Below, piece by piece: positions 29,863 to 52,900 of a stretch of DNA of 64,000 bases. The DNA is from Tistrella mobilis KA081020-065 (GTDB lineage Bacteria > Pseudomonadota > Alphaproteobacteria > Tistrellales > Tistrellaceae). Under the pieces are notes generated by a model that saw only the letters and a list, made by a program, of their open reading frames with translations, searched no databases and was not told where the DNA came from. The first letter of the stretch is position 1; each line of letters begins with the position of its first letter. A program made the translations under genes and the position numbers. The stretch covers positions 625,001 through 689,000 of the forward strand of contig NC_017958.1 of the NCBI RefSeq assembly GCF_000264455.2. Direction: 5' to 3'.

Positions 29863-30169
29863 CGGCTGGACCTCCTTGCTGTGACCTGCATGCGACGGCC
29901 GCGAACGAAACCGATACGTTCCGGACCGTCTGACCTTCGCCCCCGACGGATTCCGGGCGACGCGGCCTTTGAACTCTAACATAATCGCTCGCCCGCCGGA
30001 TGAAAGAGGGCAAGATCCCCATCTCCGGCAGAGGGGCCATGCCTCATCGGCATTCCAGGCTGCATTCAGCTGCGGATCATTCCGTCCGCCCGCCAGCATC
30101 ACCGCACCAATACCGGCCGACGCGGCAGTTCTGCCGCGCAACGGCCGGCACGACCGGGACCGAAGCCAC
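29863..30169. other. 307-bp divergent gap before the RND operon
   Basis: No gene seen. The inverted repeat CGCGGCAG-TT-CTGCCGCG at 30121-30138 lies 32 bases before the RND adaptor start. It could be a repressor site or a leader hairpin. No TetR or other local regulator gene is adjacent. Confidence 0.5.
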
Positions 30170-31342: not shown

Positions 31343-31363
31343 TCGCGGAGAGGACAGAGCCTT

Positions 31364-34300
31364 ATGAAACTCTCCGATATCTGCATCCAGCGACCGGTCT
31401 TCGCGACCGTGCTGAGCTTCGTGGTCCTGCTGCTGGGCCTGGTCGCCTATGACCGGCTGTCGGTCCGCGAATATCCCAACATCGACCCGCCGGTCGTGAA
31501 TGTCGAGACCACCTATCCGGGCGCCAGCGCCCAGATCATGGAAAGCCAGATCACCCAGATCCTGGAAGACAGCCTGTCGGGCATCGAGGGGATCGACTAC
31601 ATCACCTCGATCAGCCGCCAGCAGCAGAGCCAGATCACCCTGCGCTTCAAGCTGGACCGCGATCCGAGCGATGCGGCCGCCGATGTCCGCGACCGCGTGG
31701 CGCGCGTCCGCGGCCAGCTGCCCGACGAAATCGACGAGCCGATCATCGAGAAGGTCGAGGCCGACGCCCAGCCGATCATCTATCTCGCCTTCTCGTCCGA
31801 CCGGCATTCGCCGCTGGAGCTGTCGGACTATGCCGACCGCTACGTCAAGGACCAGCTCCAGATCCTGACCGGCGTGTCTCAGGTGATGATCTTCGGTGAG
31901 CGGCGCTATTCGATGCGCATCGCGCTCGACCCGATCCGCGTCGCCGGCTACGGACTGACGATCCAGGAGATCGAGGCGGCGCTGGCCGCCCAGAATGTCG
32001 AAATCCCGGCCGGCACGATCGAAAGCGCCGAGCGCGAATTCACCGTGCTCTCGGAAACCGATCTGCAGCGCCCCGAACAGTTCAACGCCATCGTGCTCGC
32101 CGAGCGCGACGGCCATCAGATCCACCTCTCCGATGTCGGCCAGGCCTTCATCGGTGCCGAGGCGGAAGACAGCGCCGCCCGCTTCAACGGCAAGCCCGCC
32201 GTGGCGATGGGTGTGGTCAAACAGGCGACCGCCAACCCGCTCGACGTCTCGGCGGCGGTACGCACGCGCATCCCCGAGATCATCGAGAACCTGCCCGAGG
32301 GCATGCGGGTCGACGTCGCCTATGACAGCTCGGTCTTCATTCAGGAATCGATCAACAATGTCTACGACACCATCATCGAGGCGGTGGTGCTGGTCATCCT
32401 GATCATCTTCCTGTTCCTGCGCTCGCTGCGCGCGACGCTGGTGCCGCTGGTGACCATTCCGGTCTCGCTGATCGGCGCCTTCTTCATGATGTATCTGCTG
32501 GGCTTCACCATCAACACGCTGACCCTGCTGTCGCTGGTGCTCGCCATCGGCCTGGTGGTCGACGACGCGATCGTGATGCTGGAGAACATCTTCCGCCATA
32601 TCGAGGCGGGCATGTCGCCGATGCGCGCGGCCTTCAAGGGCAGCCGCGAGATCGCCTTCGCAGTCATCGCAATGACCATCACGCTTGCCGCTGTCTACAT
32701 GCCGATCGCCTTCCAGACCGGCACCACCGGCCGGCTGTTCACCGAATTCGCCCTCACCCTGGCCGGCGCCGTGCTGATCTCGGGCTTCGTGGCGCTGACG
32801 CTGACGCCGATGATGTGCGGCGTGCTGCTGAAGCACCAGACCAGCCACGGCCTGTTCTACCGGATCATCGAGGGTTTCCTGAACGGCCTGACCCGCGGCT
32901 ATCGGGCAACGCTCAAGGGCGCGCTCAAGGTCCGGCCGCTGATCCTGCTGATCGGTCTGGGCGTTGCGAGCGGCAGCTTCTTCCTGCTCAAGGCCCTGCC
33001 GGAAGAGCTGGCCCCCTACGAGGATCAGGGTTTCCTGATCGGCTTCCTGATCGGCCCCGAGGGCGCGACGCTCGACTATACCGAGCGCTATGCCCGCGGG
33101 CTGGAGGGCATCTATGCCGGCATCCCCGAGGCCGAGACCTATTTCGTGGTTGCCGGCTTCCCGCTGAAATCGCAGGGCATCAGCTTCGTGAAGCTCAAGA
33201 ACTGGGCGGATCGCGAACGCAGCGCCTCCGAGATTGCAGCCTCGGTGATGCCCTCGATGTTCGGTGGCCTTCCGGGTGTGATGGCCTTCCCGATCCCGCC
33301 CGCCCCGCTCGGCCAGGAAATCGGCGAAAAGCCGGTGCAGTTCGTGGTCCAGTCCTCGCTGCCCTATGAACAGCTGGGCGCGCTGGTCGACAAGATCGTC
33401 GCGCGGGCGATGCAGAACCCCGGGCTGCAGAATGTCGAAACCGACCTCAAGCTCAACCGGCCGCAGCTGACCGTCTCGGTCGACCGGGCCAAGGCCGCCG
33501 ATCTCGGCATCGGCGTCGACGTGATCGGCCGGACGCTGGAAACCGCCCTCGGCGGGCGTCAGGTCACCCGCTTCAAGCTGCATGGCGACCAGTATGACGT
33601 GATCATCCGCCTGGATGATCGCTACCGGGCGACGCCGTCGGATCTGAGCGCGATCTATGTCCGCTCGGCCACCGGCGACATGGTCCAGCTCTCGAACCTG
33701 GTCAAGGTGACCGAGACCGTGGCGCCGCAGGGGCTGAACCACTTCAACCAGCTGCGCTCGGTCACGGTCGATGCCAATCTGGCGCCGGGCTATGCGCTGG
33801 GTGACGCCCTCACCTTCCTCGACCAGGTCGCGCGGGAGGAACTGGGCGGTCAGGCGACCACCGACCTGTCGGGCCAGAGCCGCGAATTCCGCGACAGCGC
33901 CTCCAGCCTGGTGATGACCTTCGTGCTGGCGCTCGGCTTCATCTTCCTGGTGCTTGCCGCCCAGTTCGAAAGCTGGCGCGACCCGTTCATCATCATGCTG
34001 ACCGTGCCGCTCTCGATCACCGGCGGCCTTCTGGCGCTGTACCTCTCGGGCGGCACCTTCAACATCTACAGCCAGGTCGGCGTGGTCACCCTGATCGGCC
34101 TGATCACCAAGCACGGTATCCTGATCGTCGAATTCTCGAACCAGATCCGGCGCGAGGGCCTGTCGCGCAGCGATGCGGTGGTCGAGGCGGCGGTGCAGCG
34201 CCTGCGCCCGATCCTGATGACCACCGGTGCGATGGTGCTGGGCACGGTGCCGCTGGCACTCGCCACTGGCGCCGGCGCCGAAAGCCGCCAGGATATCGGC

Positions 34301-34462
34301 TGGGTGATCGTCGGCGGCCTGCTGGTCGGCACCTTCTTCACCCTGTTCGTGATCCCGACGGTCTATACCTATATCAGCCGCCGCGACATGAAGCCGATCG
34401 TCGAGGCGCCGAGCGATGCCGAACTCGCCGCCGAGGGAGCCCAGGGCCATGTTGCCCACTGA
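31364..34462 (+). CDS. RND efflux permease (AcrB/MdtB-like)
   Basis: 1032 residues. The N-terminal KLSDICIQRPVFATVLSFVV and TTYPGASAQIMESQIT are typical HAE1 openings. Proton-relay Asp residues are present in helix 4 (GLVVDDAIVMLENIFRHIE); two large periplasmic loops flank twelve helices, and the sixth-helix repeat region contains GVVTLIGLITKHGILIVEFSN. A proton-driven drug or lipid pump. It forms an operon with the adaptor and overlaps the phosphopantetheinyl transferase start by 14 bases, tying the pump to the natural-product locus. Confidence 0.95.
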   Translation: MKLSDICIQRPVFATVLSFVVLLLGLVAYDRLSVREYPNIDPPVVNVETTYPGASAQIMESQITQILEDSLSGIEGIDYITSISRQQQSQITLRFKLDRDPSDAAADVRDRVARVRGQLPDEIDEPIIEKVEADAQPIIYLAFSSDRHSPLELSDYADRYVKDQLQILTGVSQVMIFGERRYSMRIALDPIRVAGYGLTIQEIEAALAAQNVEIPAGTIESAEREFTVLSETDLQRPEQFNAIVLAERDGHQIHLSDVGQAFIGAEAEDSAARFNGKPAVAMGVVKQATANPLDVSAAVRTRIPEIIENLPEGMRVDVAYDSSVFIQESINNVYDTIIEAVVLVILIIFLFLRSLRATLVPLVTIPVSLIGAFFMMYLLGFTINTLTLLSLVLAIGLVVDDAIVMLENIFRHIEAGMSPMRAAFKGSREIAFAVIAMTITLAAVYMPIAFQTGTTGRLFTEFALTLAGAVLISGFVALTLTPMMCGVLLKHQTSHGLFYRIIEGFLNGLTRGYRATLKGALKVRPLILLIGLGVASGSFFLLKALPEELAPYEDQGFLIGFLIGPEGATLDYTERYARGLEGIYAGIPEAETYFVVAGFPLKSQGISFVKLKNWADRERSASEIAASVMPSMFGGLPGVMAFPIPPAPLGQEIGEKPVQFVVQSSLPYEQLGALVDKIVARAMQNPGLQNVETDLKLNRPQLTVSVDRAKAADLGIGVDVIGRTLETALGGRQVTRFKLHGDQYDVIIRLDDRYRATPSDLSAIYVRSATGDMVQLSNLVKVTETVAPQGLNHFNQLRSVTVDANLAPGYALGDALTFLDQVAREELGGQATTDLSGQSREFRDSASSLVMTFVLALGFIFLVLAAQFESWRDPFIIMLTVPLSITGGLLALYLSGGTFNIYSQVGVVTLIGLITKHGILIVEFSNQIRREGLSRSDAVVEAAVQRLRPILMTTGAMVLGTVPLALATGAGAESRQDIGWVIVGGLLVGTFFTLFVIPTVYTYISRRDMKPIVEAPSDAELAAEGAQGHVAH

Positions 34463-37766: not shown

Positions 37767-40103
37767 ATGCGCACATCGCGCTGGCTGATCCTGACCTATG
37801 CCCTGATCATTCTGGCGGGGCTGTCCGCAGCCCTGCCCAACCTGCTTAACCCCGACCAGAGGGCAGCACTGCCCGGCTGGCTGCCGTCGAAAGCCGTCAC
37901 CCTCGGCCTCGATCTCCGCGGCGGGTCGCAGCTGGTGCTGGAGGTCGACGCCTCCGCCCTGCTCAACGATCCCAGGCTGACCGAGGCGGAGCGCGCCGAA
38001 CGGCTGAATGCCGCCCTGACCCAGAGCCTCGAAATCGTCCGCACGCGCATCGACCAGATCGGCGTCGCCGAACCCTCGGTCCAACGGGTCGGCGACGACC
38101 GGATCATGGTCCAACTGCCCGGCGTGCAGGATCCGGCCCGGATCCGCACCCTGCTCGGCAGCACGGCGAAACTCGGCTTCCATATGCTGGCCGATCCGCC
38201 GGCCGCCGGAACCCGCCCGGCACCCGGCGCGCTGTTGCTGCCCATGCAGGACGAACGCGACGGCAGCGGCGCACCGCGAAAGCTGGCGGTTCAGGCGCAG
38301 CCCGCGCTCGACGGTGACCGGCTGGCCGATGCCCATGCCGGCTTCGATCCACGCAGTGGCGAGCCGGTGGTCAATTTCCGCTTCGACGAGGCCGGCGCCC
38401 GGCGCTTCGCCGAGATCACGACGCAGAATGTCGGCCGCCCCTTCGCCATCGTGCTCGACGGCCGGATCCTGAGCGCCCCGGTGATCCGCGAGCCGATCAC
38501 CGGCGGCGCGGGCCAGATCAGCGGCCGGTTCTCGGTGGCCGAGGCGGGCGTGCTCTCGGCCCTGCTCCGCGCCGGCGCCCTGCCCGCCCCGCTCAAGGTG
38601 ATCGAGGAACGCAGCGTCGGCCCCGATCTGGGCGGAGACGCGATCCGTGCCGGCATCATTGCCGGCCTGGCCGGCTTCGCGCTGGTCTGCGGCTTCATGG
38701 TGGTGCTCTATCGTGGTTGGGGGATGATCGCGAACCTGGCCCTGCTGCTCAACGTCGCCCTGACCCTGGGTGCGCTCTCGGCACTCGGCGCCACCCTCAC
38801 CCTGCCGGGAATTGCCGGCATCATCCTGGGCCTCGGGCTTGCGGTCGACGCCAATGTGCTGATCAACGAGCGCATCCGCGAGGAAACCCGCCGCGGCCGC
38901 AATGCCCGGGCCGCCCTCGATGCCGGGTTCAAACGGGCCTATGCGACCATCGTCGATTCCAACGTCACCAGCCTGATCGCCACCCTGCTGCTGTTCCAGT
39001 TCGGCAGCGGCCCGGTGCGCGGTTTCGCCGTCACCATGGCGCTCGGCATCCTCATCTCGATGTTCACCGCGGTCACCGTGGTCAGGATCGTCATGACCTG
39101 GGTCCTGGACCGGCGCGGCGCGCTCCGCTCATCCACGGCCAGGCTGGAAATCGAACCGCTGATCCGGCTGATGCCGAAAGGCGACACCCGGATCCGCTTC
39201 ATGCGCGCCCGCTTTGCTGGCATCGCGGTCTCGGCCGTGCTGTCGCTCGCCTCGATCGGGCTGTTCCTCTCGCCCGGGCTCAATTACGGGGTAGACTTCA
39301 AGGGCGGCATCCAGATCGAGGCCGCGACCCATGCCGATCCGGGCCGCCTGCGCGAGCGGCTGGACGGGCTGGGGTTGGGAGAGATTACCCTCCAGCAGAC
39401 CGGCAGCGACGGCGTCCTGGTCCGGGTGGCGCGTCAGCCCGGCGATGATGCCGCTCAGACCACAGCAGTCGAAACGCTCAAAACGGCGATCCGGGATGTC
39501 GACCCCGCCGCCGGCATCGAGCGGGTCGATGTGGTGGGGGCCAAAGTCAGCGGCGAGCTTGCCACCGCCGGCGTGCTGGCGGTGGTGCTCGCCGGCCTCG
39601 CCATGATGGTCTACATCTGGTGGCGCTTCGAATGGCCCTTTGCGGTGGGGGCCATCGCGACGCTGGTGCTCGACATCACCAAAACGATCGGCTTCTTCGC
39701 CCTTACCGGCATCGATTTCAACCTCACCGCCATCGCCGCCCTGCTGACCCTGATCGGCTATTCGGTCAACGACAAGGTCGTGGTCTACGACCGGATGCGC
39801 GAGAACCTGCGCCTGCACCGCACGCTGTCGCTGCGCGAGATGATCGATCTTTCGATCAATCAGACGCTGACCCGCAGCCTTTACACCTCGGCGACCGCCT
39901 TTCTCGCCATGCTGCCGCTGGCGATCTGGGGCGGCAGCGCGGTGGAGAGTTTTGCCGTGCCGATGGTGTTCGGCATCGTGGTCGCGGCATCGTCCTCGGT
40001 GTTCATCGCAGCTCCCATCCTGCTGTTCCTGGGCGAACCGATGCGCCGGCGCAGCCGGTCGGCCCTGACCGCGGAGGAGGCAGCGACCGCAACCACCGGA
40101 TGA
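37767..40103 (+). CDS. secDF: SecD-SecF fusion, protein translocase accessory subunit
   Basis: 778 residues fusing SecD (about 1-455) and SecF (about 470-765). SecD features: KAVTLGLDLRGGSQLVLEVD, LEIVRTRIDQIGVAEPSVQR, and GLGLAVDANVLINERIREE in helix 4. SecF features: GLNYGVDFKGGIQIEA and TLIGYSVNDKVVVYDRMRENL. It uses the proton gradient to help Sec-exported chains leave the channel. Many alphaproteobacteria have separate secD and secF with yajC, so this fused copy, without yajC, beside a natural-product locus may be an additional copy. Confidence 0.93.
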   Translation: MRTSRWLILTYALIILAGLSAALPNLLNPDQRAALPGWLPSKAVTLGLDLRGGSQLVLEVDASALLNDPRLTEAERAERLNAALTQSLEIVRTRIDQIGVAEPSVQRVGDDRIMVQLPGVQDPARIRTLLGSTAKLGFHMLADPPAAGTRPAPGALLLPMQDERDGSGAPRKLAVQAQPALDGDRLADAHAGFDPRSGEPVVNFRFDEAGARRFAEITTQNVGRPFAIVLDGRILSAPVIREPITGGAGQISGRFSVAEAGVLSALLRAGALPAPLKVIEERSVGPDLGGDAIRAGIIAGLAGFALVCGFMVVLYRGWGMIANLALLLNVALTLGALSALGATLTLPGIAGIILGLGLAVDANVLINERIREETRRGRNARAALDAGFKRAYATIVDSNVTSLIATLLLFQFGSGPVRGFAVTMALGILISMFTAVTVVRIVMTWVLDRRGALRSSTARLEIEPLIRLMPKGDTRIRFMRARFAGIAVSAVLSLASIGLFLSPGLNYGVDFKGGIQIEAATHADPGRLRERLDGLGLGEITLQQTGSDGVLVRVARQPGDDAAQTTAVETLKTAIRDVDPAAGIERVDVVGAKVSGELATAGVLAVVLAGLAMMVYIWWRFEWPFAVGAIATLVLDITKTIGFFALTGIDFNLTAIAALLTLIGYSVNDKVVVYDRMRENLRLHRTLSLREMIDLSINQTLTRSLYTSATAFLAMLPLAIWGGSAVESFAVPMVFGIVVAASSSVFIAAPILLFLGEPMRRRSRSALTAEEAATATTG

Positions 40104-40185: not shown

Positions 40186-40971
40186 ATGCAGCCCACCGCC
40201 TCGCGCTGGGTCCAGCCCGGCCAGGATCGATGGCTCACCGGTCCCGCCGGCCGAAGCGCCGCGCCCTGGCGGCTGCTCTGCATCCCCCATGCCGGCGGCG
40301 GCGCCAGCGCCTTCCGCCCCTGGGAGGCGTTCACCGGCCCGGATGTCGAGCTTCTGGTCGCCCAGCTGCCGGGCCGCGAAAGCCGTTTTCCCGAACCGGC
40401 GCTCGACCGGGTGGCACCGGTGGTCGACGGGCTGGCCACCGCCCTCGGCCGTCTTGCGCCCAAACCGACCCTGATCTTCGGCCACAGCATGGGTGCGATG
40501 ATCGGCTATGAACTGGCCGCCCGGCTGGTGGGTGAGGCCTCGCCCCATGCACCGCGCACGCTGATCGTCTCGGGCCGCACCGCCCCCGGCTCATCCAGCA
40601 CCTTGGGCGATCTGCTCGGGCTGGACGATGCCGGCTTCGCAGATGCACTTGCCGCCCGCTATGACGGTATCCCCGCCGCCCTGCTCGCCGATCGCGAATT
40701 GATGGCCGTGTTCCTGCCGACCCTCAGGGCCGATTTCCGGATGGTCGCGGAATATCGCCCGGATCCTGCCGCCTGCCCGCGCCTGCCCTGCCCGATCCTG
40801 GCGCTGGGTGGCGCCGACGACATTCATGCCGCCCCCGAACGGCTGACCGCCTGGCAGGATTTCACCACCGCCGGCTTCATGCGCGAGATCTTTCCGGGCG
40901 GGCATTTCTACCTGGCGGCCGATCCTGCCTGGGTGGTTGCGCGCGTGCTGGCCGCGCGCAGCATGGTCTGA
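40186..40971 (+). CDS. Type II thioesterase of NRPS/PKS systems
   Basis: 261 residues of alpha/beta hydrolase fold. CIPHAGGGASAFRPW is the family start; the nucleophile Ser is in GHSMGAMIGYE, the Asp in GGADDIHAAP, and the His in FPGGHFYLA. Such enzymes remove wrong or stalled groups from carrier domains. It lies in the same locus as the PPTase and NRPS genes, though about 9 kb away on the same strand. Its stop is 4 bases from the convergent SPFH gene's stop. Confidence 0.93.
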   Translation: MQPTASRWVQPGQDRWLTGPAGRSAAPWRLLCIPHAGGGASAFRPWEAFTGPDVELLVAQLPGRESRFPEPALDRVAPVVDGLATALGRLAPKPTLIFGHSMGAMIGYELAARLVGEASPHAPRTLIVSGRTAPGSSSTLGDLLGLDDAGFADALAARYDGIPAALLADRELMAVFLPTLRADFRMVAEYRPDPAACPRLPCPILALGGADDIHAAPERLTAWQDFTTAGFMREIFPGGHFYLAADPAWVVARVLAARSMV

Positions 40972-40974
40972 GGC

Positions 40975-42426
40975 TCAGCCCCCCGCGCCCGCGACCCTGG
41001 CGCCGCCCACGGGCGGGGCGGTTTCAGGAACGACGCCATAGGGCCCGAACCCCGCCGGCCCATAGGGCGTGGTCACGGCACCCGTGCCGCCACCGATGCC
41101 CAGCCAGCGGCTCAGCTGTTCCAGGGTCACCGGCTCACCCGGCAGGAAGCCCTGGCGCACGGCGGTGGGCGCCGGCTGGGGCGAGGCAGGCTGCACCGGG
41201 GTCGCCGGCGCCGTCTGATGCTCGGGCGTGGTGGTTTCCGGCACCATGGCCCGGCCGACCGAGGCGGTGCCGGCGGGCACGCCTTCGACGACCGCCTCGC
41301 TCTCGCCGCTATCCATGCGCGGCCCTGATTTCGGGCCGCCAGCCGGCGCGGGAGCCGCACCTGTCTGATTGAGCGGTTCCGAACCGACCGGCCGGATCTC
41401 AGCCGTGCCCGTATCCACGTCGCCCACGATGACCGGCTGGCCGGCACCGCCATCGGCAGCCTGGGGCGCGCCCGTGGCGCCGGACGTCGTCGCCGCGCGG
41501 GCGCCATTGCTGTCGATGCCGCCCAGGATCAGCGGCATGCCACCCGAATCCTTGTTGCCGATCACCACCACCTTGGCATTGGTCGACTGGGCGAGCTGCA
41601 CCGAGGCATTGATGCCGAGCCAGGTGAGATAATCCGGAATTTCCGAGGCGCCGACCCGATCGAACAGCATGCGGATACCTTCGCCTTCGATCCGCTTGCG
41701 TTCGGCTTCCTTCTGCTCGGTCGCCAGGCGGTAATCATATTCCAGCTGACGCTGATACTGCTCGACCTTGCGCTCGATCGCCTGGGCAACCCGCTCGGGC
41801 AGATGGATCGCCTTGATCAGCACGTCCTGCAGTTCGATCAGATCGATTCCGGGTTGGCTGTAATAGTTGCCGCGCAGGAAATTCGACTTCACGCCTTCAT
41901 AGATCTCGTTCTGCACGATGGTGCGCAGGTTCGAATAAAAATCCTCGGCCGTGTACTGCGAGATGCGCGCCCGGGCCACCGATCCGACTTCCGGGATAAT
42001 GATCTTGTGCAGATATTCCGGGCCGACATTCTTGTGCAGGATGCCGACATATTCCTGGTTCACCCGGTAGCGGAACGAAATGGTGGTCGCGACCGTCAGA
42101 CCGTCTGCGGTGATCGCATCATAGGTCTGGGTCACGGTCTGGAAGCGGACGTCATAGATCTCCAGCCGGTCCCAGGGCCAGATCACCTGCAGCCCTTCCC
42201 CCGTGGGGTTCTCGACATCGGTCCCGCTGAAACGGTGCCAGACCACCCCGGCATGACCGGCCGGCACGGTGATGAACATCGCCGGCCAGAACAGGATGAC
42301 GAGCGCACCAAAGATCAGCACGGAGAGCGTCAGCGACCAGAGATGGCGGCGGAGCCAGCCGCCGATCCGGCCGAACAGCCCGGGACGCTCCGGCTCGTCG
42401 GTCATGTCCATATCGGCGACCGTCAT
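40975..42426 (-). CDS. SPFH-domain (stomatin/prohibitin) membrane protein
   Basis: 483 residues. One membrane helix (SLTLSVLIFGALVILFWPAMF) then an SPFH domain (about 55-270: VPAGHAGVVWHRFSGTDVEN, GLTVATTISFRYRVNQEYVG, YLTWLGINASVQLAQS), with a coiled-coil part rich in Glu/Arg and a Pro/Ala/Gly-rich tail of about 150 residues. These proteins form ring- or cage-like membrane microdomains. The start overlaps the ABC exporter's stop (ATGA, 42423-42426), so the two are translated together. Its work with the exporter is inferred from this. Confidence 0.88.
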   Translation of the reverse strand: MTVADMDMTDEPERPGLFGRIGGWLRRHLWSLTLSVLIFGALVILFWPAMFITVPAGHAGVVWHRFSGTDVENPTGEGLQVIWPWDRLEIYDVRFQTVTQTYDAITADGLTVATTISFRYRVNQEYVGILHKNVGPEYLHKIIIPEVGSVARARISQYTAEDFYSNLRTIVQNEIYEGVKSNFLRGNYYSQPGIDLIELQDVLIKAIHLPERVAQAIERKVEQYQRQLEYDYRLATEQKEAERKRIEGEGIRMLFDRVGASEIPDYLTWLGINASVQLAQSTNAKVVVIGNKDSGGMPLILGGIDSNGARAATTSGATGAPQAADGGAGQPVIVGDVDTGTAEIRPVGSEPLNQTGAAPAPAGGPKSGPRMDSGESEAVVEGVPAGTASVGRAMVPETTTPEHQTAPATPVQPASPQPAPTAVRQGFLPGEPVTLEQLSRWLGIGGGTGAVTTPYGPAGFGPYGVVPETAPPVGGARVAGAGG

Positions 42427-44111
42427 GCCGGGTCCTCCCCATCTTCGTCTTCAATACGAGCGTCGTCTTCAATACGGGCATCTCGGTTGTCGACGATCCT
42501 GACCACGCGCCCCTCCTCCATCGCCACCCGACGGTCGGCAACGTCGAAATAGCGGTCGTCATGGGTGATGGCGATCACCGTCTTGCCGCGCGCTTTCAGC
42601 ATCGGCAGCAGTTCCCGGTAGAACTTGCGCCGGAACTGCGGGTCCTGATCCGCCGCCCATTCGTCGAGCACCAGCACCGGCCGGTCCTCGATCATCGACA
42701 CCATCAGGGCCAGACGCTTGCGCTGGCCGCTCGACAGGTCGATCGTATCGAACAGGTCACCCTGAAGCGCTACCTTGCCGCCCATCTCCATCAGCTTCAC
42801 CAGCGCGTCAAACTCGGCCACATCCGGCGGTTCGATGCCATAGAGCCTGCGGAAGAGATGGTAGTCGGCGTAGATCGCCGAAAACAGCGAACGATAGGTT
42901 TCGAAAGAGCCGCGGGTAACCGGTTTTCCATCCAGCCGGATCATGCCCCTGTCGGCATGATAGAGGCCGAGCAGCAGGCGGATCAGGGTCGACTTGCCCG
43001 AGCCGTTGCCGCCGGTCACGAAGATCAGCTCGCCCGACCGGATGGTCAGGTCCACCGGCCCCACCCCGAAGGACACGCCGCCGACCGGGGCATAGGCAAA
43101 GGCGACCCCGTCCAGCCGGATCTCCTCGAACGAGGTCAGGGTCTGGGGCGGGGTGGCGGCCACCTCGGATGCGGCGACGATCTCGCGCAGCACCCGGTCC
43201 ATGCGCATCAGATTGTCCGCGGCGGCATTGGCCATCGCCATCATAGGCACGGCCTGAATCACCATGCTGAGCGGGCCCACGATGAACAGGATCGCCGTCG
43301 CCGTGCGCACCACCGCCTCGGGCTCGGTATTGCCGAAGCTCGGCACCACGAACACCACCAGGCCCAGCAGCAGGAAGATCATCGTCTGGCCGAAGACGAA
43401 TTCATTGCCCGACTTCACCTGCATATCGGCCTTGGCATCACGGGCCTCGATCGACACCCGCGCCATGTCGCGCAGCAGGGCATCGCGGCGTGCCGACGAC
43501 AGCTTCACCTCCTTGAAGCCGTCGAGCACGTCGCGCATGCTTTCGAAAACCTGGTTTTCCTTCATCATCGCAGCCGGATACCGGTTGCGCAGGTCGATCA
43601 GCCGCCGGATGACCAGAAACACCGCAATCGCGATGAAGCCGGTGCTCAGCCAGAAGGCGGTGCGGTCGGTGATGAAGATGTAGATCATCGCCAGCCCGAC
43701 CAGAATCACCGACTGTGCGGCGATCACCAGCAGGTTGGCGGCCTGGGATATCGTCTGGGTATCGCGGATGACGCTGGCGAGGATGTTGCCCCGCCCCACC
43801 TGTTCCAGCGGCAGAAGATCGGATCGCGAAACCGCATCGATCAGGCTGCTGCGCTGACGATGGATGATCTCCTCCACCTCGGTGGCGGTGATCTGCATCA
43901 TCCGGCGCTGGCTCAGCACATAGATCGCCACCACGATCACAAACAGCGCCACGGTCCGCAGGTCGAGCGCGTCTTCGTAGAGCCCGGCGGAATTGTTGAT
44001 GATCGCCATCACCAGCGCATTGCTGACACCGGCGAGCGCGGCGATGAACAGGAGGGTCGCCGGCTTCGCCGTCAGGTCGCGGCGAATAAGCTCGATCAAG
44101 GGCATCGTCAC
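42423..44111 (-). CDS. Cyclic-peptide-type ABC exporter (SyrD/PvdE-like)
   Basis: 562 residues: six-helix membrane half (about 1-310) fused to an ATPase half (about 330-545). Walker A GGNGSGKSTLIRLL, signature LSSGQRKRLALMVS, Walker B PVLVLDEWAAD, H-loop ITHDDRY. The layout is that of the cyclic peptide/siderophore exporter family that moves NRPS products across the inner membrane. It forms a translationally coupled pair with the SPFH gene and is probably an export route for the peptide made by the neighbouring NRPS. Confidence 0.93.
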   Translation of the reverse strand: MTMPLIELIRRDLTAKPATLLFIAALAGVSNALVMAIINNSAGLYEDALDLRTVALFVIVVAIYVLSQRRMMQITATEVEEIIHRQRSSLIDAVSRSDLLPLEQVGRGNILASVIRDTQTISQAANLLVIAAQSVILVGLAMIYIFITDRTAFWLSTGFIAIAVFLVIRRLIDLRNRYPAAMMKENQVFESMRDVLDGFKEVKLSSARRDALLRDMARVSIEARDAKADMQVKSGNEFVFGQTMIFLLLGLVVFVVPSFGNTEPEAVVRTATAILFIVGPLSMVIQAVPMMAMANAAADNLMRMDRVLREIVAASEVAATPPQTLTSFEEIRLDGVAFAYAPVGGVSFGVGPVDLTIRSGELIFVTGGNGSGKSTLIRLLLGLYHADRGMIRLDGKPVTRGSFETYRSLFSAIYADYHLFRRLYGIEPPDVAEFDALVKLMEMGGKVALQGDLFDTIDLSSGQRKRLALMVSMIEDRPVLVLDEWAADQDPQFRRKFYRELLPMLKARGKTVIAITHDDRYFDVADRRVAMEEGRVVRIVDNRDARIEDDARIEDEDGEDPA

Positions 44112-44214
44112 CGGGCGGAACTCGGTCTTGGGCGGGAAAGTCGTGCCCGGGCCTCAGACCCGGGAAGAGGAGCGCGGCGTGCCCGGCCGGGTCCGCGACG
44201 CAGCACCTTGCGGC

Positions 44215-44427
44215 TCAATGGCGTTTCGTCTTGCGCGCCACCACGGGGCGTGCCGGCTCGCGCGGGCGTGTCGCATAGAGCAGCAGCAGCATCACGAAGG
44301 GGGTGACCAGCAGCGACAGCAGGAACGAGACGACGAACCCCGGTTTGCGGCCGGCGCCGCACAGCCCGACCATCACCGACATCACGACATAGATGGTGGG
44401 GAGCAGCAGGCCCATGGTCGGCGGCAT
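44215..44427 (-). CDS. Small two-helix membrane protein
   Basis: 70 residues with two hydrophobic stretches (MGLLLPTIYVVMSVMVGL and GFVVSFLLSLLVTPFVMLLLLYA), a Cys-Gly turn between, and a basic tail. No family recognised. GAGAGGA precedes the start by 9 bases. It lies between the DUF697 gene and the ABC exporter on the same strand, so it may belong to their transcript. Confidence 0.6.
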   Translation of the reverse strand: MPPTMGLLLPTIYVVMSVMVGLCGAGRKPGFVVSFLLSLLVTPFVMLLLLYATRPREPARPVVARKTKRH

Positions 44428-44550
44428 CGGGATGGTCCTCTCGGTGCACTGGTCGTCGGACGACCTGGTGGGTCGTCATGCGGCAGGCGCCGCCCGCCCC
44501 GCCCCGCAGATGCGGTGACGGAGGCAGACGGCGATCGTGGTCGACGGCAA

Positions 44551-45123
44551 TCACGACGCCTTGGTGGCGGCGGGCTTGGCCTCGGTCTTGGTGTCGGCAG
44601 CGGCCTTGGCAGCCTCGACGGTGGACGGCGCATCGGCCTTGGCGGCCTCGAATTCGGCCTTGAAGTGCTCGCGCAGCTGATCCGGGTTGAAGTTCAGCAG
44701 CGTGCCGCCGGTCTCGAAGTGCTGGATGAACACCCGGCCGATGGCATAGGTCACGGCATAGGAGACGGTGGGCGAAACCGCGAGGCCGATGACGGTACCG
44801 ACCACCGGCACCGACTTCACCAGGCTGGCGACGCCACCGACCAGGCCGGCCGCGGCGGTGCCGGGGACGACGGTGTTGGCCAGCGAGCCGATGATCGCCT
44901 TGGCGCGGTTCTCGCTGAACGGCACGTCATAGAGCTTCGACAGCTCGTAGATCATCTTCACCTGCACGCCCGTGACCAGAGCGACGTCGAGCAGGGGGAA
45001 AGGCAGCAGGCCGGCGCCCGCGCCCCAGAGCGCGCAACGCTTGACCAGCGCGCGCGCATCGTCGGCGCGCAGCTCGGGGGTGTACTCTTCGGCGGGAGCA
45101 GCCGTCACTTCGGCGGTGGACAT
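44551..45123 (-). CDS. DUF697-family membrane-associated protein
   Basis: 190 residues. The core (about 25-130) has helices with LLPFPLLDVALVTGVQVKMIYELSKLY and VVGTVIGLAVSPTVSYAVTYAIGRVFIQHFETGGTL, matching DUF697/YcjF-like domains often linked to small GTPases. The tail is an Ala/Lys/Glu-rich helix. Function unknown. ATG 45123 is taken as start; ATG 45138 is in frame. The 250-bp gap upstream holds no gene I can support. Confidence 0.8.
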   Translation of the reverse strand: MSTAEVTAAPAEEYTPELRADDARALVKRCALWGAGAGLLPFPLLDVALVTGVQVKMIYELSKLYDVPFSENRAKAIIGSLANTVVPGTAAAGLVGGVASLVKSVPVVGTVIGLAVSPTVSYAVTYAIGRVFIQHFETGGTLLNFNPDQLREHFKAEFEAAKADAPSTVEAAKAAADTKTEAKPAATKAS

Positions 45124-45373
45124 CGATCGCATCCTCATCCAGGGGCCCGGACCAGTCTTGCCGGGATCGGTCGGTGGGTCGAAAGGGGAAGGGAGGACAG
45201 CCCGTCATGGGAAAGCGCCGTACGGGCAGGGTCGCCCGTATCCTGCTGCTGATCCATGCAGAGCCTGCCATTCTTCCTCTGAAACGCCAACGGAATTCCC
45301 GGAGACATCCGGTTCCGCGGGCGGTACGCCTCCGGACCGGCCTCCACCGGCAGAGCTGTCACACCCTGCGCGG

Positions 45374-48300
45374 TCATGAGGCCGGCCGATCCTTCAATCT
45401 CTGCTGAAGCAGCGCATCGGGCGATGGCGGTTCCACCAGCACCTTCCGCCGCTTCCGCGAGATCAGAGTATAAACCGCAGGTATGACGAACAGCGACACG
45501 AACGTACCAAAGGTCATGCCGCCGACGATCACCCAGCCCAGTTCGCGGCGCCCGCCGGCGCCGGCGCCGGTGGCGATGGCCAGCGGCACCGCGCCCAGCA
45601 CGGTGGCGATCGTGGTCATGATGATCGGCCGGAGCCGGGTTTCGGCCGCCTCGATCACCGCCTCGGTCCGGTCGCGGCCGGCATCGCGCAGCTGATTGGC
45701 GAATTCGGTGATCAGGATGCCGTGCTTGGCGATCAGGCCGATCAGGGTCACGAAGCCGATGAAGCTGTAGATGTTCAGCCCGCCGCCGGTCTCGCTCAGG
45801 GTGAAGATCGCACCCGCCACCGCCAGCGGCGCGATGGCCAGCACGATCACCGGGTCGCGGAAGCTTTCGAACTGGGCGCTCAGCATGAAGAAGATGAACA
45901 CCAGCGCCAGCAGCAGCACCAGACCGGCCGAGCCGCTTTCCTGCGAAGCCTTGGCGGCATCGCCGGCCAGCACCGGCTTCATGCCAGGCTGCAGCACCTC
46001 GCCCATCAGCGGCATCAGAGCCTGGAAGGCTTCGGCCAGCTGATGACCGGGGGCGACCGCCGCCGTGAAGGTGGCCGAGCGCAGCCCGTCTGTGTGCTCC
46101 AGCGTGTCGGCGCCGACTGTGCGGTGCAGTTCCACGAAATCGCGCAGCGGCAGCGGATCGACGCTCTTGCCGCGGATTTCCAGCGTGTTGATCGTCTCCA
46201 CCTGGCCCCGCCATTCGGGCGGCAGGTCGATGATCACCTTGTAGAGTTCGCCGCGGTTGGTGAAGGTGGAAACCGGGTTGCCACCAAGCGCCGCCTGCAG
46301 CGTGTCGCCGAGCGCGGTTGCCGTCACCCCCTGCTCGCCCGCGCCGTCGCGGTCCAGCGTCACCTCCAGCTGCGGCCGGTCCAGCTCCAGGCTGGAGGCC
46401 GGGTCCGCGATCGACGGCAGATCGCGCGCCTTCGTCACCAGCCGGTCCATGGTCCGGGCCAGATCGTCATAGCTGCCGGTGGTGGTGATCATCAGCTGGA
46501 TCGGCCGCGAACTGCCGCCGCCACCCAGCGGGCTGACCTGCAGAACATCGATCCGCAGGCCCGGGATCGCCGCCAGCAGCGGCTTCAGCGCATCGCCGAT
46601 TTCGGTGGCGCTGCGGCTGCGCTCCCCCCAGGGCTTCAGCAGCAGATAGGCATTGGCCGCAGACGGCTTGGGGCTGCCGAGCAGGGTGAGGACGCCGGTC
46701 GCCTCGGGCACGGTTTTCAGCACCGCCTCCACCCGGGCGATCTGATCCTGAAGATGATCGAGAGTCGAGGTACCGCGCGCCTCGATATCGAACAGGATAT
46801 AGCCCTGATCCTCGACCGGCGCGAAGGCGAAGTTCAGCCGGCTGGTCGCCGAGAAGCCGACATAAAGCGCGGCGATCACCCCCAGCAGCACCAGCCAGCG
46901 CCGGTGCAGCAGCCAGCCCAGCAACCGGGCATAGGCGCGGGCCAGCGCCTCGGTCGCCCGTTCCACCCGGCGGGCATAGCCGTGTTCGGCCCGTGCGCCG
47001 ATCAGCCGCGCGCACATCATCGGCGACAGCGTGCGGGCGATGAAGCCCGAGATCAGCACGGCCCCCGCCAGAGTGAAGGCGAATTCCCGGAACAGCATGC
47101 CGATCTGGCCGCCGACCAGGCCGATGGGCGCGAAGACCGCCGCCAGCGTCAGCGTGGTCGCGATCACCGCGAAGCCGATCTCGCGGCTGCCCAGGAAGGA
47201 TGCGGTGAAGGCATCCAGCCCGTCATCGACATGGCGCTGGACGTTTTCGATCTCGACGATCGCATCGTCGACCACCAGGCCGATCGCCAGCACCACCGCC
47301 ATCAGGGTCAGGGTGTTGATACTGAAATCCATCGCCGCCATCAGCCCCAGCGTGCCCAGCAGCGACAGCGGGATGGTCACCAGCGCGATGGCGCTGGAAC
47401 GCAGCGAGCCGAGGAAAATAACCACCACGCCCAGCACCAGGGCGACGGCGATCGCGATCGTCTCGAACACCTCGTGCACCGAAGCGTCGATATAGATCGT
47501 GCTGTCAAAGGCGATCTCGAGCCGGAAACCGCCGGGCAGGCCGGCCTGCAGGGCCGGCAGCTCGGCCTTCACCAGCCTGGCGATGTCGAGCGGATTGGCG
47601 GTGCTCTGCGGCACGATGCCGACGGCCACCACATCGCGGCCGTTGAAGCGGATGGCATTGTCCAGGCTTTCCGGCCCCACCTCCGCCCGGCCCAGATCGG
47701 AGATGCGAACCAGATAGCCCGGCTCGGCGCGCACCACCAGCCGGTCGAATTCGGCCGCGGTCGACAGCGCCCCTTCCACCACCACATCGGTGCGGTCGGT
47801 ACGGGTGCGGATTTCGCCGCCGGGCACGTCGGCATTCTGGGCGACGATCGCCGCCCGGACATCGCCGATGGTGATGCCGTAAGAGGCCAGGCGGATCGGG
47901 TCGAGCACGATGCGGATGGCATAACGCCGCTCACCCAGCAGCGTCGCCTGGGCCACGCCGTCCAGCGCCGCGATCCGCGGCAGCAGCAGGCGATTGGCGG
48001 TATCGCTGATCTCCAGCGCATCATGGCTGTCGCTCGCCACCGTCAGGAACATGATCGGCTGGGCGTCGAGCGATTGCTGCGCCACCACCGGCGCCCGCGC
48101 CGCCTGGGGCAGCGTGTCGGTCAGCGGCGCCACCTTGTTGCGCACCTCGTTGGCGAGCAGCAGCCCGTCCAGCCCCAGGCGGAACTGGATCTGGACCAGC
48201 GACATGCCGGCGCGGCTCTGCGAGGTGATCTGCTGCACGCCCGAAATGCCCGAAACCGCCTGTTCGATCGGCGTGGTCAGCTGGCGCTCGACCTGCTCGG

Positions 48301-48467
48301 CCGCCGCCCCCGGACTAGACGGTGGTGATGGTGACATAGGGGAAATCCATCGCCGGCAGCTGGCGGATGGACAGATGGTTGAGCGCATAAAGCCCCAGCA
48401 GCGCCAGGATCAGGTTGATCACGATCGCGAAGACCGGCCGGCGGATGCAGAGGTCGGAGATCAGCAT
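45374..48467 (-). pseudogene. RND efflux permease with a single-base frameshift
   Basis: The intact gene should encode about 1030 residues starting at ATG 48467 (MLISDLCIRRPVFAIVINLI). After 50 codons the frame meets a stop: GTC TAG TCC GGG, where homologues read V-Y-P-G. Removing one G near 48315 restores VYPGAAAEQVERQ and an open frame to 45374. The rest is a full HAE1 pump: helix-4 GLVVDDAIVEIENVQRH, GFVTLIGLIAKHGILITEFAN. The ATG overlaps the adaptor stop (TGATG). Either a real inactivating mutation, a programmed shift, or a sequencing error. Confidence 0.82.
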
Positions 48468-49600
48468 CAGCCGCCCCCGTCCGCCGGCACCGGATCGATC
48501 CGCATGCCGTCCTCGACCTTGAACTGGCCTTCCACGATCACCGGCGTACCCGCATCGAGCCCGGTCACAATCTCGACCGTGCCGCCATCGCCGTCGGCAC
48601 CGATGGTCACCGGGCGGCGGATCGCCTTGCCGTTGTCGGCCACATAGACGTAGTCGCCCGAGAGCGACGACATCACCGCCGGCCGCGGCACCAGTACAGC
48701 GCCCTCGCGGCTGTCGAGCAAGAGATCGACATTGACGAACAGGCCCGGATGGATCGGCCGGCCGCCGATTTCGGCCTGGGTCAGCTCGGCACGGAGCAGG
48801 ATGCTGCGGCTGTCGGGTTCGATCGAGGGATCGACCAACGTCACCCGCCCCTGGATGGGGTCGGGGCCCAGGCTCTGGGACGAGAGGGTGACCGGCAGGC
48901 CGGTCTTCAGCCGGGGCAGAAGTTTTTCCGACACCCGGAACGTCACCCGCAGGCGAGAGCGATCCTCGACCGTCAGCGCCTCTTCACCGGGGGAAAGAAA
49001 GCTGCCGACCTCGATCTTGCGGGTGCCGGCGACGCCGTCGATGGGTGCGCGCAGGGTGAGCAGGTCGAGCTGGGTCTGCTTCACCTCCAGCGCCGCCCGC
49101 GAGGCCGCGACCGCCGCCCGCGACTGGTCGATATCGGCGCGGGATTTGGTGCCCCGGCGGCCCAGTTCTTCGTCGCGCTTCAGGTTCTGGGCGTCCAGCG
49201 CCGCGGTCGCCCGGGCGCTTGCAAGCTCGGCCTCGGCCACGCGCTGGTCCAGCCGGACCAGGGGCTGGCCCTGCTTCACCGCCTCCCCCTCGCGGAACAG
49301 CACGGCGACGACATGGCCGCCGGATTGCGGCGACAGCACGATGCGTGCCACCGGTTCCACCGTGCCGAAGGTGATCAGGCGATCATAGGCCGTGCCGCGG
49401 CCGGCCTTGGCCACGCCCACCTTCATCGCCGGCGCCGCCGGGGGCTGCTGGGGCGGCGTGGCGGCGGTTCCGGCCACGGCCGGCCCTTTCGTCGCCCCCG
49501 GCGCAGGCACGCCGGGCACGAGACCGGCCTGCCACGCCCAGCCGGCGGCACCGGCCAGGCCTGCAACGATCACCAGCGTGATCCAGCCTCTCGCCCTCAT
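48467..49600 (-). CDS. RND periplasmic adaptor of the frameshifted pump
   Basis: 377 residues. An N-terminal anchor (WITLVIVAGLAGAAGWAWQAGL), lipoyl halves (RIVLSPQSGGHVVAVLFREGEAVKQGQPLVRLD and LTLRAPIDGVAGTRKIEVGSFLSPG), a hairpin rich in Ala/Arg, and barrel domains. The start MRARGW at 49600 is chosen for the anchor; upstream frame looks noncoding. Stop and the permease start share a base (TGATG), so the pair is an operon. It is divergent from the NRPS genes across a 340-bp gap. Confidence 0.9.
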   Translation of the reverse strand: MRARGWITLVIVAGLAGAAGWAWQAGLVPGVPAPGATKGPAVAGTAATPPQQPPAAPAMKVGVAKAGRGTAYDRLITFGTVEPVARIVLSPQSGGHVVAVLFREGEAVKQGQPLVRLDQRVAEAELASARATAALDAQNLKRDEELGRRGTKSRADIDQSRAAVAASRAALEVKQTQLDLLTLRAPIDGVAGTRKIEVGSFLSPGEEALTVEDRSRLRVTFRVSEKLLPRLKTGLPVTLSSQSLGPDPIQGRVTLVDPSIEPDSRSILLRAELTQAEIGGRPIHPGLFVNVDLLLDSREGAVLVPRPAVMSSLSGDYVYVADNGKAIRRPVTIGADGDGGTVEIVTGLDAGTPVIVEGQFKVEDGMRIDPVPADGGG

Positions 49601-49940
49601 CCCACTCCCCTGCTGCGGCGCAATAGACCGCGAACGGTCACTGGTCCGGGATGGAGGGTGACACGACATGGCATCACCTGTCTACCGGACCGCAACCAAA
49701 AATCCACTTGCACGGGAATATCTCCCGGCCTACCAATGGGCGCAACTTCATGGGCACCGAAACTGTGGCAGAATGCACCGCACCGGATCCCATGGTCATC
49801 GATAGCAGGATCTGCGTCCGCCTTCACCTCTGCGCCGTCCGGCGATAAACGACCATCGACCGGAACACCCCCTCGCAGGTTGCTGCATCGCCAGGACAGC
49901 GCCTATCATCGCTCGATCACCAGCGGAATGAAGACTGCCG
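49601..49940. other. 340-bp divergent gap between RND adaptor and NRPS genes
   Basis: No gene seen. It is less GC-rich than its flanks and must hold the promoters for the NRPS (plus) and RND (minus) units. The short inverted repeat CGGGA-ATATC-TCCCG at 49713-49727 is a possible regulator site. No clear -35/-10 pair stands out, and no regulator gene is adjacent. Confidence 0.5.
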
Positions 49941-52900
49941 ATGACCGCGCCACATTTCATCGCACATCAAAACATCTGGCTGGATGAGCGGCTGAATACC
50001 GGACCGGGCTCATATCACATCGGTGGATATGTTGAACTCCGTGGTCCTCTGGATATCGATATCTTCGGCGCGGCACTGAAGGCGGTGGCGGCTGCACATG
50101 CCGGCCTGCATATGCAACCGGTGCCCGAAGGAGACGGTTTTCGTCTTCTCGCATACCAAGACACCTTCTCGTCACCTGTCAGCGTCGATCTGTCGCAGGA
50201 GGGAAATCCTGCGGCAGCTGCGAACGCCTGGATGGCGGCGGATTTCCGCCGGATGTTTCCGGCCGGCGCCCCCCTGTTCAGGTGGGGGTTGATACGCCTC
50301 ACCGCCGACCGCCATTTCTGGACCAAGACCTATCACCATCTGATCGTCGACGGCCACGCGATCTCGCGGATCGTGCAGGATGCCGCACATGCATACACCT
50401 CGCTGCTTGCCGGCCGCGTCCCCGGCCTCGCCGGCAGCGATCCGCTGGCGATCGGTGATCCGCTTGCAGGCGACGGCGTGTCGGCGCGGCACCACTGGTC
50501 GACGGTTCTGGCAGCGGCCCCGCCGGTGCTCAACCCGGTACCGCCCCTGCCACCCCCGGATCTCGGCCCGCCGGATCTCACCCCGCCGGAGCCCGGCATG
50601 CCGGGCCGGCGAACCCGGATCGGGCTGGAGCGCGGGGTCTATGATGGCCTCGCCCGGCTTGCCGCACAGGCCGGCGCCGGCCTGCCGCAGCTGCTTCTGG
50701 TGCTGGCCTCTGCCGCCCTGCTCCGCCGGGCGGGGCGGGATGCTCTGGTCGCCGGCCTGCCGGTCGCCAACAGGCCGACCGCCGCCCACAAGGCGGCCGT
50801 CGGCCTGTTCGCCACCATGCAGCCGGTCATCGTTGCGATCGATGCCACCGACCGCCCGCTCGATGTCGCAGCCGCTCTGGCCCGCAGGATGCGCAGCGCC
50901 TATCGCCATCGCAGCATCGCCTTTGCCGAACAGGCGGCGATGCTGGCGGCGGTGCGCGGCCGGGGCACGCCCGCTTTCGATCTCACCCTGTCTTTCGAGC
51001 CGCACGACTACGACGCCCGCTTCGGCCCGGTGACGGCGACCGCCCATACCCTCTCCACCGGGCGAGAGCCGCATCCGCTCTCGATCTTCGTGCGCGACTA
51101 TCATGACGGTGCCGCCGTCACCGTCGATCTGGACTGGCGCAGCGACGTTTTCGCCGCCGACGACATCCCGGCCCTGATCGCCCGCTTCAACCGGCTCTGC
51201 CGCAGGCTCCTCGACCAGCCTCAGGCCAGCCTCGGCCGGCTCGACCAGCCGGATACCGAAACCCTCGTCCGGCTCAGACGCCTGGGCTGCGGCCGGCCGC
51301 CACGACCGGGCGATCTCGCACCGCTCGCCGATACGATCGCGGCCCAGGCCGCCGCCACCCCCGCAGCCCTCGCGGTGGTCGATGCCGCGACCGGGGATCG
51401 TCTGGACTATCAGACCCTCGTCGCCTGCGCCGGCCGCCGCGCGGCCGCCCTTCAACGCGCCGGTGGCGGCCCCGAAAGCGTGATCGGCCTTGCCCATCCT
51501 TCGGGGATCGAGGCGGTGATCTCGCGGCTCGCGGTCTCGATGGCAGGCGCCGCCTGGCTGCCGCTCGATCCCGAGGATCCCCCTGCCCGCCGGGCGACGA
51601 TGCTCGATCAGGCCCGTCCCCTGCTGGTGCTGGACGACCAGTCGGCCCGCGCTCTCGACCTGACCGTTGCCGCCGATGCCCGGCCGGCAGCATGGCCGGT
51701 TCATCCCGAACAGCTCGCCTATCTGCTGTTCACCTCGGGCTCGACCGGCACGCCCAAGCCCGTCGCCGTCCCGCACCGCGCCCTGGCCATGCACATGGCC
51801 TGGATGGGCCGGCGCTATCCGCTCGGCCCCGACGACGTCGTCCTGCAGAAGACCCCGGCCGGTTTCGACGCCTCGATCTGGGAGTTTCTGGCGCCGCTGA
51901 TGGCCGGTGCGCGGCTGGTGCTGGCGCCAGCCGGCAGCCATCGCGACCCTGAGATGATCGGGCGGCTTTGCGCAGATCACGGCGCCACCATCCTGCAGGC
52001 CACGCCGACCCTGATCGACGCGCTGGCCGCAGGCGGGGCGCTCGCCCGTGCCGGCCGGCTGCGCCGCCTGTTCGCGGGCGGCGAGATCCTGGGCCCGGCG
52101 ACCATCGCCGCCGCCCGGGCAGCGCTGCCCGCCGATGCCGTCCTGATCAATCTCTACGGCCCTACGGAATGCTGTATCGACGCCTCGGCCGCCGACATCC
52201 CGGCGGATCTGCAGGGGGCGGCGCCGCTGGGCGATCCGGTTGACGGCGCCAGCCTGCAGGTGATCGATGCCGCGGGCGACCCGGTCGGCCCGGGGGTCGC
52301 CGGTGAACTCGCCATCGGCGGCCTGGCCGTCGGCCGTGGCTATCACGGCGATCCGGTGCGCACCGCGTTCGCCTTCCGCCCCGACCCCGAGGCGAAGGCG
52401 CCGGGCGCCCGCCGCTATCTGACCGGCGATCGCGTCCGCCGCACGGAACGGGATGCCCTGCTGGCGCTGGGCCGGATCGACGGCCAGATCAAGCTGGCCG
52501 GCCGGCGGATCGAACCGGGCGAGATCGAAGCCGCGCTGATGGTCCATCCCGCCATCGCCCAGGCGGGCGCAGCCCTGCTGCCGGCGACCGACGGCGCCGC
52601 TCCCCGGCTCGGCGCCTGCATCGTGCTCCGCCCCGGCCATCCTGCCCCGGCCCCCGACGAGCTGCGCCGCCATCTGGCGGCCCGCCTGCCCGCCGTGCTC
52701 CACCCTGCGATCGTGACCTCCGCCGACCGGCTGCCGCTGTCGCGTTCAGGCAAGCTCGACCGCCGGGCTCTTGGCAAGGCGATGGCCGACGAGGTACCGG
52801 CCACCGCCGCCCGCACCCGCCTCGACGGCCCGCTCCAGGCCGAAATCGCCGCGATCTGGGCCGAAGTGCTCGACCTGCCGATGCCCGGATCCGCCGATGA

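Follow-up and report, generated by a model that had tools for sequence, protein, structure and literature searches.

Does the coupling of an SPFH gene to the gene of a peptide exporter belong to one biosynthetic locus alone, or does it mark a type of exporter? The question is raised by a window of 64,000 nucleotides of Tistrella mobilis KA081020-065 (the whole stretch of DNA that was analyzed; C4:625001-689000 of its own genome), which harbors an ABC exporter gene overlapping the gene of an SPFH protein in the vicinity of nonribosomal peptide synthetase (NRPS) genes. On the evidence of a survey of SPFH loci and of an exporter tree, the SPFH protein and a DUF697 membrane protein appear to accompany one branch of the TIGR01194 'cyclic peptide' exporters as regular partners. 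The genes concerned are as follows (G001 being a genome of the same genus):

40975-42426, minus strand: SPFH protein, 483 amino acids (PF01145, 97.1 bits, cut-off 23.6)
42423-44111, minus strand: ABC exporter, 562 amino acids, permease fused to ATPase (TIGR01194, 321.6 bits, cut-off 286.2; in the tree among the SPFH-linked exporters)
42423-42426, minus strand: ATGA overlap of four bases between the exporter stop and the SPFH start
44215-44427, minus strand: 70-amino-acid protein with two hydrophobic segments (translation and hydropathy; G001 copy 87% identical)
44551-45138, minus strand: DUF697 protein, 195 amino acids (PF05128, 50.6 bits, cut-off 27.7)

An earlier reading of the letters alone (the sequence-only reading) had described the four-base overlap and, adjoining the pair, a type II thioesterase and two small proteins. 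The overlap was read directly on the minus strand, the thioesterase was recognized by PF00975, and the small proteins proved to be the DUF697 protein and the 70-amino-acid protein with its two segments. The DUF697 gene has an alternative start, an ATG at about 45123. The 70-amino-acid protein gave no match in a Pfam search; a longer, overlapping open reading frame (ORF) at 44108-44554 was considered as the gene in its place, showed no family match and was set aside in favor of the conserved shorter ORF. Comparison of the window with a second Tistrella species gave dN/dS values of 0.16 for the SPFH gene, 0.08 for the ABC exporter, 0.22 for DUF697 and 0.17 for the 70-amino-acid protein.

Distribution of the module and its exporter branch

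The neighborhood search for SPFH and exporter pairs that the sequence-only reading had proposed was run over a collection of 84,980 species, with an alignment of four SPFH proteins and no exporter as the query, and it returned 77 loci. The loci were picked up by two short peptide motifs from the SPFH protein, so that divergent members escape the count, and the SPFH, DUF697 and exporter profiles were built from clustered ORFs of the same 77 loci. An exporter of this kind, counted at 150 bits or more with the locus-built profile and not by its TIGR01194 score, was present in 68 of the 77 loci, DUF697 likewise in 68, both in 63 and neither in 4; these and the other co-location figures are raw counts. 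Two loci (L033 and L087) are without a complete SPFH ORF and had their exporter and DUF697 entries set by hand, and L091 (29% identity, E 5e-14) is counted among the 77 and may not belong to them. The module is a three-part one, DUF697 being as constant a companion as the exporter. Exporter and SPFH genes were direct neighbors in 40/77 loci, half of these (20/40) in Azospirillum, and four-base overlaps of the two genes were found elsewhere at two Delftia loci and in metagenome-assembled genomes (MAGs) of Pseudophaeobacter and Rhodospirillales. By lineage labels taken from record titles, the SPFH loci of Alphaproteobacteria fall in Azospirillum, Thalassospira, Pleomorphomonas, Fodinicurvata, Caenispirillum, Reyranella and others, and those outside the class in Delftia and in MAGs or strains of Rhodocyclaceae, Magnetococcales, SAR324, Myxococcota, Bacteroidota, Verrucomicrobiota, Lentisphaerota and Treponema.

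In the reverse direction, TIGR01194 exporters were sought in 299 Pseudomonadota genomes at E 1e-85 or better and in 115 genomes of the class at 1e-75, and were found in 41 and 6 of them, respectively; SPFH or DUF697 was present in 7 of the 54 windows fetched around exporters. The exporter tree, built by a quick method with long branches flagged, held 111 rows, 60 linked and 51 unlinked, where linked means SPFH or DUF697 inside the fetched window. At most two exporters were taken per locus, none below 500 bits or under about 480 amino acids, and near-copies or duplicates, 25 loci in all (L009, L012, L013 and 22 others), were excluded. The linked label needed 5 changes on the tree, compared with a mean of 36.9 in shuffles. 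Forty unlinked exporters, here called solitary, formed one clade (SH-like approximate likelihood-ratio test support 100), to which the two other TIGR01194 exporters of the window's own genome belong. The window exporter is not part of this clade or of any starred set, its nearest row being L165 (support 94). Among the other 11 unlinked rows, 10 are placed among the linked ones and come from seven genomes that hold such an SPFH gene elsewhere. The SPFH gene was thus found in 8/8 tested genomes with a linked-type exporter (the seven and G175) versus 0/7 with only the solitary type; five of the eight are of one genus, the seven were drawn from roughly thirty solitary-only genomes, and by genus the comparison is 4/4 versus 0/6.

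A comparison of 64 linked-side rows with the 40 solitary rows (L193, L204 four times, L088 and L051 left out) revealed P257 as the only exporter column that was invariant on the linked side, among rows with a residue there, and different in the solitary clade. P257 is located behind predicted helix 5, and the loop that follows predicted helix 1 contains an insertion of two residues (47-48); the usual topology of the exporter fold would put residue 257 and residues 47-48 on the periplasmic side.

Because of the 77-locus survey and the exporter tree, the pairing is not ascribed to chance. That these genes are neighbors with no functional link, for which the sole argument is that each family is an ordinary one, is extremely improbable and already contradicted by the presence of all three parts in 63/77 loci, by the 8/8 versus 0/7 co-occurrence and by the low dN/dS values. 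The sequence-only reading had presented an SPFH protein coupled to such an exporter as a new arrangement: the coupling is real and conserved, and is not stated generally in the literature found, but it is not peculiar to the window locus and marks a large part of the TIGR01194 tree.

Solute-binding proteins of the families NMT1_3, ABC_sub_bind, SBP_bac_3 and SBP_bac_11 recur near the module in different genera (L019:2564-3808, L018:3086-4483, L018:5154-6203, L013:6943-7704 and L078:12389-13867) and may be a further part of it. At the main Azospirillum paralog (L021:6768-14226) the SPFH gene is flanked by two exporters, and at L013, a related locus, the following protein is of the NAD_binding_4 (male sterility) type.

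Assembly lines and the didemnin cluster

Genes for NRPS condensation, adenylation-plus-carrier or modular ketosynthase domains lie within 10 kb in 26/77 loci and 18/42 lineage labels, two of the 26 loci (L040 and L047) resting on an adenylation-plus-carrier gene cut by the locus end. NRPS, polyketide synthase (PKS) and hybrid types are all represented. By Pfam, a hybrid C-A-T-KS-AT-T gene (condensation, adenylation, carrier, ketosynthase, acyltransferase, carrier) adjoins the SPFH gene in Pleomorphomonas, modular PKS genes are present at the Rhodobacter MAG, Oligosphaera and Caenispirillum loci, and the Delftia locus carries a CmlA-type hydroxylase and a phosphopantetheinyl transferase. A whole-genome check of 14 genomes, 13 of them chosen for having no assembly line within the 10-kb flanks, showed that SPFH shares a contig with NRPS and PKS hits in Caenispirillum and Pseudophaeobacter. 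Second SPFH copies lie ~6-10 kb from NRPS/PKS hits in Azospirillum brasilense, A. canadense and A. doebereinerae (G060, G062 and G063). The module is common at assembly-line loci and not confined to them, and the coupling of SPFH to one exporter branch is firmer than its coupling to NRPS.

In the window, the remainder of the block and the assembly line beside it comprise the following:

40186-40971, plus strand: type II thioesterase, 261 amino acids (PF00975, 139.8 bits, E 2.1e-40; G001 copy 93% identical)
45374-48388, minus strand: RND efflux pump (PF00873, 817.7 bits; G001 copy 97% identical)
48467-49669, minus strand: periplasmic adaptor (membrane fusion protein) for the RND pump (TIGR01730, 232.8 bits)
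49941-56312, plus strand: bimodular NRPS with two C, two A and two T domains, fitting DidA (domain search)
56309-61699, plus strand: NRPS with C, A, ketoreductase (KR) and T domains, fitting DidB (domain search)
61696-64000, plus strand, continuing past the window end: next NRPS, with TubC docking domain, C and A (domain search)

Toward lower coordinates the minus-strand order is RND adaptor, RND pump, DUF697, 70-amino-acid protein, ABC exporter and SPFH; the thioesterase and SPFH genes are convergent, with a three-base gap. From their sequence, the NRPS genes from 49941 onward are assigned to the line for didemnin, a drug lead, because the architecture fits DidA and DidB and the sole CAAX-protease gene, with seven DidK residues, lies nearby. 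DidB presumably serves in keto acid loading and reduction, and a KR-bearing module after DidA, which we take to be a feature of the didemnin cluster, is here matched by the second NRPS protein. The sole Rce1-like (CAAX-protease) match in the genome is at C4:735405-735677, ~6 kb past the last gene in which NRPS domains were detected, and the protein at L008:10243-11283 has all seven DidK residues (D203, E204, R208, F233, H237, H274 and N278) at a constant offset of 14. Genes for TIR-domain, MazG_C and Nmad2 proteins, an odd, defense-like set, lie between the last NRPS gene and didK (L008:4824-9527).

According to the accessible part of the published description, DidA is a bimodular NRPS, DidK is a CAAX protease homolog that cleaves off the acyl-polyglutamine prodrug part, and the prodrug was retained intracellularly in a didK mutant (PMC10811503). 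The same text lists 19 ORFs in the cluster flanks, including eight transporters and eight hypothetical proteins, reports experimental tests of the thioesterase DidJ and of DidK, and describes knock-outs for L17, a laboratory strain of T. mobilis; within it the exporter and the SPFH protein are not singled out and no exporter for didemnin is named (PMC10811503). The thioesterase at 40186-40971 is probably the gene called didJ there.

Within the same species, G072 showed no long close match to the part of the window that was compared (33.0-52.5 kb), the best matches being 68-77% identical and <1 kb; an SPFH protein of this kind was not found in it (one 21-bit hit), and it holds only two strong TIGR01194 exporters. 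In G001 the block is present, the didA start included, with 89-91% DNA identity. In the three Tistrella genomes compared (G000, G001 and G072), SPFH and DUF697 were shown to be present or absent together with the block and the didA start. No close copy of the block was found in a plasmid collection, in which records of the window's own genome may be excluded. A fused SecDF gene (37767-40103, plus strand) adjoins the thioesterase; a SecDF stretch 70% identical to it is present elsewhere in G001 and in G072, and the window gene may be an additional, cluster-associated copy. Upstream (29969-34462, plus strand) lies another pair of adaptor and RND pump, giving two RND systems near the didemnin genes.

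Structure, topology and the proposed export unit

The AlphaFold model of the SPFH protein was for the most part confident over residues 20-250, with a predicted local distance difference test (pLDDT) score of at least 90 for 207 residues. It places an N-terminal membrane helix within about 29-54, followed by the SPFH domain, a long helix (211-257) and a disordered tail from about 290. Foldseek matched the model to prohibitin, HflK/C and stomatin at probability 1.00, and also to erlin, QmcA and flotillin entries; among the matched entries are the HflK/C-FtsH complex and a complex of stomatin with aquaporin 1. The N-terminal hydrophobic segment is present in 52/52 aligned SPFH homologs (alignment A2; one ORF of 53, a second copy in L016, left out). 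The SPFH domain is probably periplasmic, behind a single, predicted N-in helix. Band_7 was the sole Pfam match of the protein up to E 0.001, and it is not grouped with the flotillins, for which we take a flotillin C-terminal family besides Band_7 to be the criterion. The DUF697 model is all-helical (pLDDT 83).

There is an even chance that the genes at 40975-45138 form a composite inner-membrane export unit, with an HflK/C-like SPFH cage round the exporter, that delivers an amphiphilic product. The unit would consist of the ABC exporter, the SPFH protein, the DUF697 membrane protein and the 70-amino-acid membrane protein. SPFH subunits with one helix each and the SPFH domain in the periplasm could assemble into a ring or cage of the HflK/C type round the exporter, which would pass didemnin or its acyl-polyglutamine prodrug into the cage chamber, near the membrane esterase DidK. 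The neighboring RND pump and its adaptor would take the product outwards, and an amphiphilic product would thereby not be set free into the membrane. DUF697 and the 70-amino-acid protein may stabilize the assembly or adjust the membrane around it. In favor of the unit count the fold likeness of the SPFH protein to cage formers, the placing of exporter residues 257 and 47-48 at outer helix ends, and, as a precedent, the paraslipin detected close to the balhimycin exporter Tba (PMC11960670). The arrangement suggests a previously unnamed type of export machine. A stronger form, less likely than not, is that there is a second type of cyclic-peptide or polyketide exporter in which SPFH and DUF697 are obligate subunits, the SPFH cage being a periplasmic chamber over the exit in which products would be collected, matured (here by DidK) and handed to the RND pump outside the bulk membrane.

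The likeness to HflK/C admits a rather doubtful alternative, namely that SPFH and DUF697 serve in membrane protection or quality control, shielding the inner membrane or controlling exporter turnover with no transport role. The relatives HflK/C indeed enclose the protease FtsH, and the partners occur beside chemically different lines (NRPS and PKS); the partners, however, track one part of the exporter tree and not the product class, and they are lacking for the 40 solitary exporters, of which some have NRPS genes in the fetched window.

The sequence-only reading had raised a membrane microdomain that organizes synthesis or export, or protects the producer. As a synthesis scaffold, the SPFH protein would gather megasynthases and exporter in such a microdomain and so couple synthesis to export. 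The loci are rich in assembly lines, and in the accessible part of a study of the balhimycin exporter Tba an SPFH protein (paraslipin) was found nearby by proximity labeling and a microdomain was proposed, Tba being an actinomycete glycopeptide exporter unlike the window system (PMC11960670). The SPFH/exporter coupling does recur inside NRPS, PKS or hybrid loci; yet the predicted N-in helix puts the SPFH domain probably in the periplasm, away from the cytoplasmic synthases, and a cage fits this better. A cytoplasmic scaffold is set back by this predicted topology, and with Band_7 alone matched, no flotillin C-terminal family, and the module present in genomes without condensation domains, it is considered unlikely.

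Several observations weigh against the composite export unit with its SPFH cage. The topology signal is weak, the N-side flank being more positive in 30/52 SPFH homologs, a modest positive-inside signal, and cage formation is argued by analogy with the family, from an SPFH protein modeled as a monomer. The DUF697 model gave no match at E ≤0.001 in a fold search against the PDB, and because of this no function could be read from its fold. In the tree, a TIGR01194 exporter of G023 falls outside the 40-row clade on a long branch with neither partner in its window, and a search of that genome with the window SPFH protein gave no match; the solitary clade also has five linked rows (L051 and four of L204) as its neighbors. 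In Thalassospira, Fodinicurvata and Pleomorphomonas, 7-8 kb separate SPFH from the exporter, and in G398 and G167 the distance is tens of kb. Of the 77 loci, 51 (many on short contigs) have no assembly line within 10 kb, and in 4 of the 14 genomes checked (G059, G067, G068 and G070) the module occurs with no condensation domain genome-wide. No experiment on the window exporter or SPFH protein was found in the literature, and didemnin is a putative substrate. Export may also follow cleavage rather than precede it, because the didK mutant kept the prodrug inside the cell (PMC10811503, in its accessible part).

A wide occurrence of the pair in genomes lacking NRPS clusters, which the sequence-only reading had named as evidence against its proposal, was found in part: besides those 4 genomes, the main Azospirillum paralog has no assembly line nearby in the genomes examined, yet 26/77 loci do have one. 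Two Thalassospira profundimaris loci (L018, from G059, and L034) show the SPFH/DUF697/exporter block without the NRPS genes seen at four other Thalassospira loci. Both cases would fit a general lipid or peptide exporter module that handles no assembly-line product and was co-located through islands, leaving didemnin to the RND or another pump, as would the two further TIGR01194 exporters of the window's own genome and the second RND pump of the window. Such a general role is nevertheless quite unlikely, given that the module recurs next to NRPS, PKS and hybrid loci in different phyla and is missing, along with the block, from G072.

Known systems and biological meaning

The window exporter shares family and architecture with the SyrD/PvdE/YojI-type exporters of TIGR01194; it differs from the solitary clade, which lacks SPFH and DUF697 in the fetched windows, in its position outside that clade and in having P257 and the insertion at 47-48. 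The proposed composite export unit resembles HflK/HflC-FtsH in its SPFH domain behind an N-terminal helix and in the Foldseek match, the solved entries being complexes with a membrane client. It would depart from that system in having an ABC exporter as the client and DUF697 as a partner, with a single SPFH gene whose product ends in a long disordered tail and with a putative cage.

A published case of the pair is the palmerolide (pal) PKS-NRPS cluster of Candidatus Synoicihabitans palmerolidicus, for which an ABC transporter and a Band7 stomatin-like protein appear in a figure legend and the exporter is described as SyrD-like; in the accessible parts of the two papers no Band7 function and no general association is proposed (PMC8739492, PMC8636102), and 'DUF' has zero occurrences in that of PMC8739492. 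Among open-licence literature, no paper on a general SPFH/exporter association in natural-product loci was found, the relevant results being the Tba-paraslipin and palmerolide papers, and a term search of two delftibactin papers gave no hits. The pair in the palmerolide cluster is hence already in print, uncommented in the text accessible.

The exit of natural products from Gram-negative producers is poorly known. If the module is such a route, candidate export genes would now be named for didemnin and for many uncharacterized clusters, and the combination of SPFH, DUF697 and exporter would serve as a marker for cryptic clusters across phyla. It would also offer a bacterial system in which the long-standing question of how SPFH cages serve a defined client could be studied. 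Were SPFH and DUF697 obligate subunits, part of a textbook exporter family would be a multi-protein machine in several phyla.

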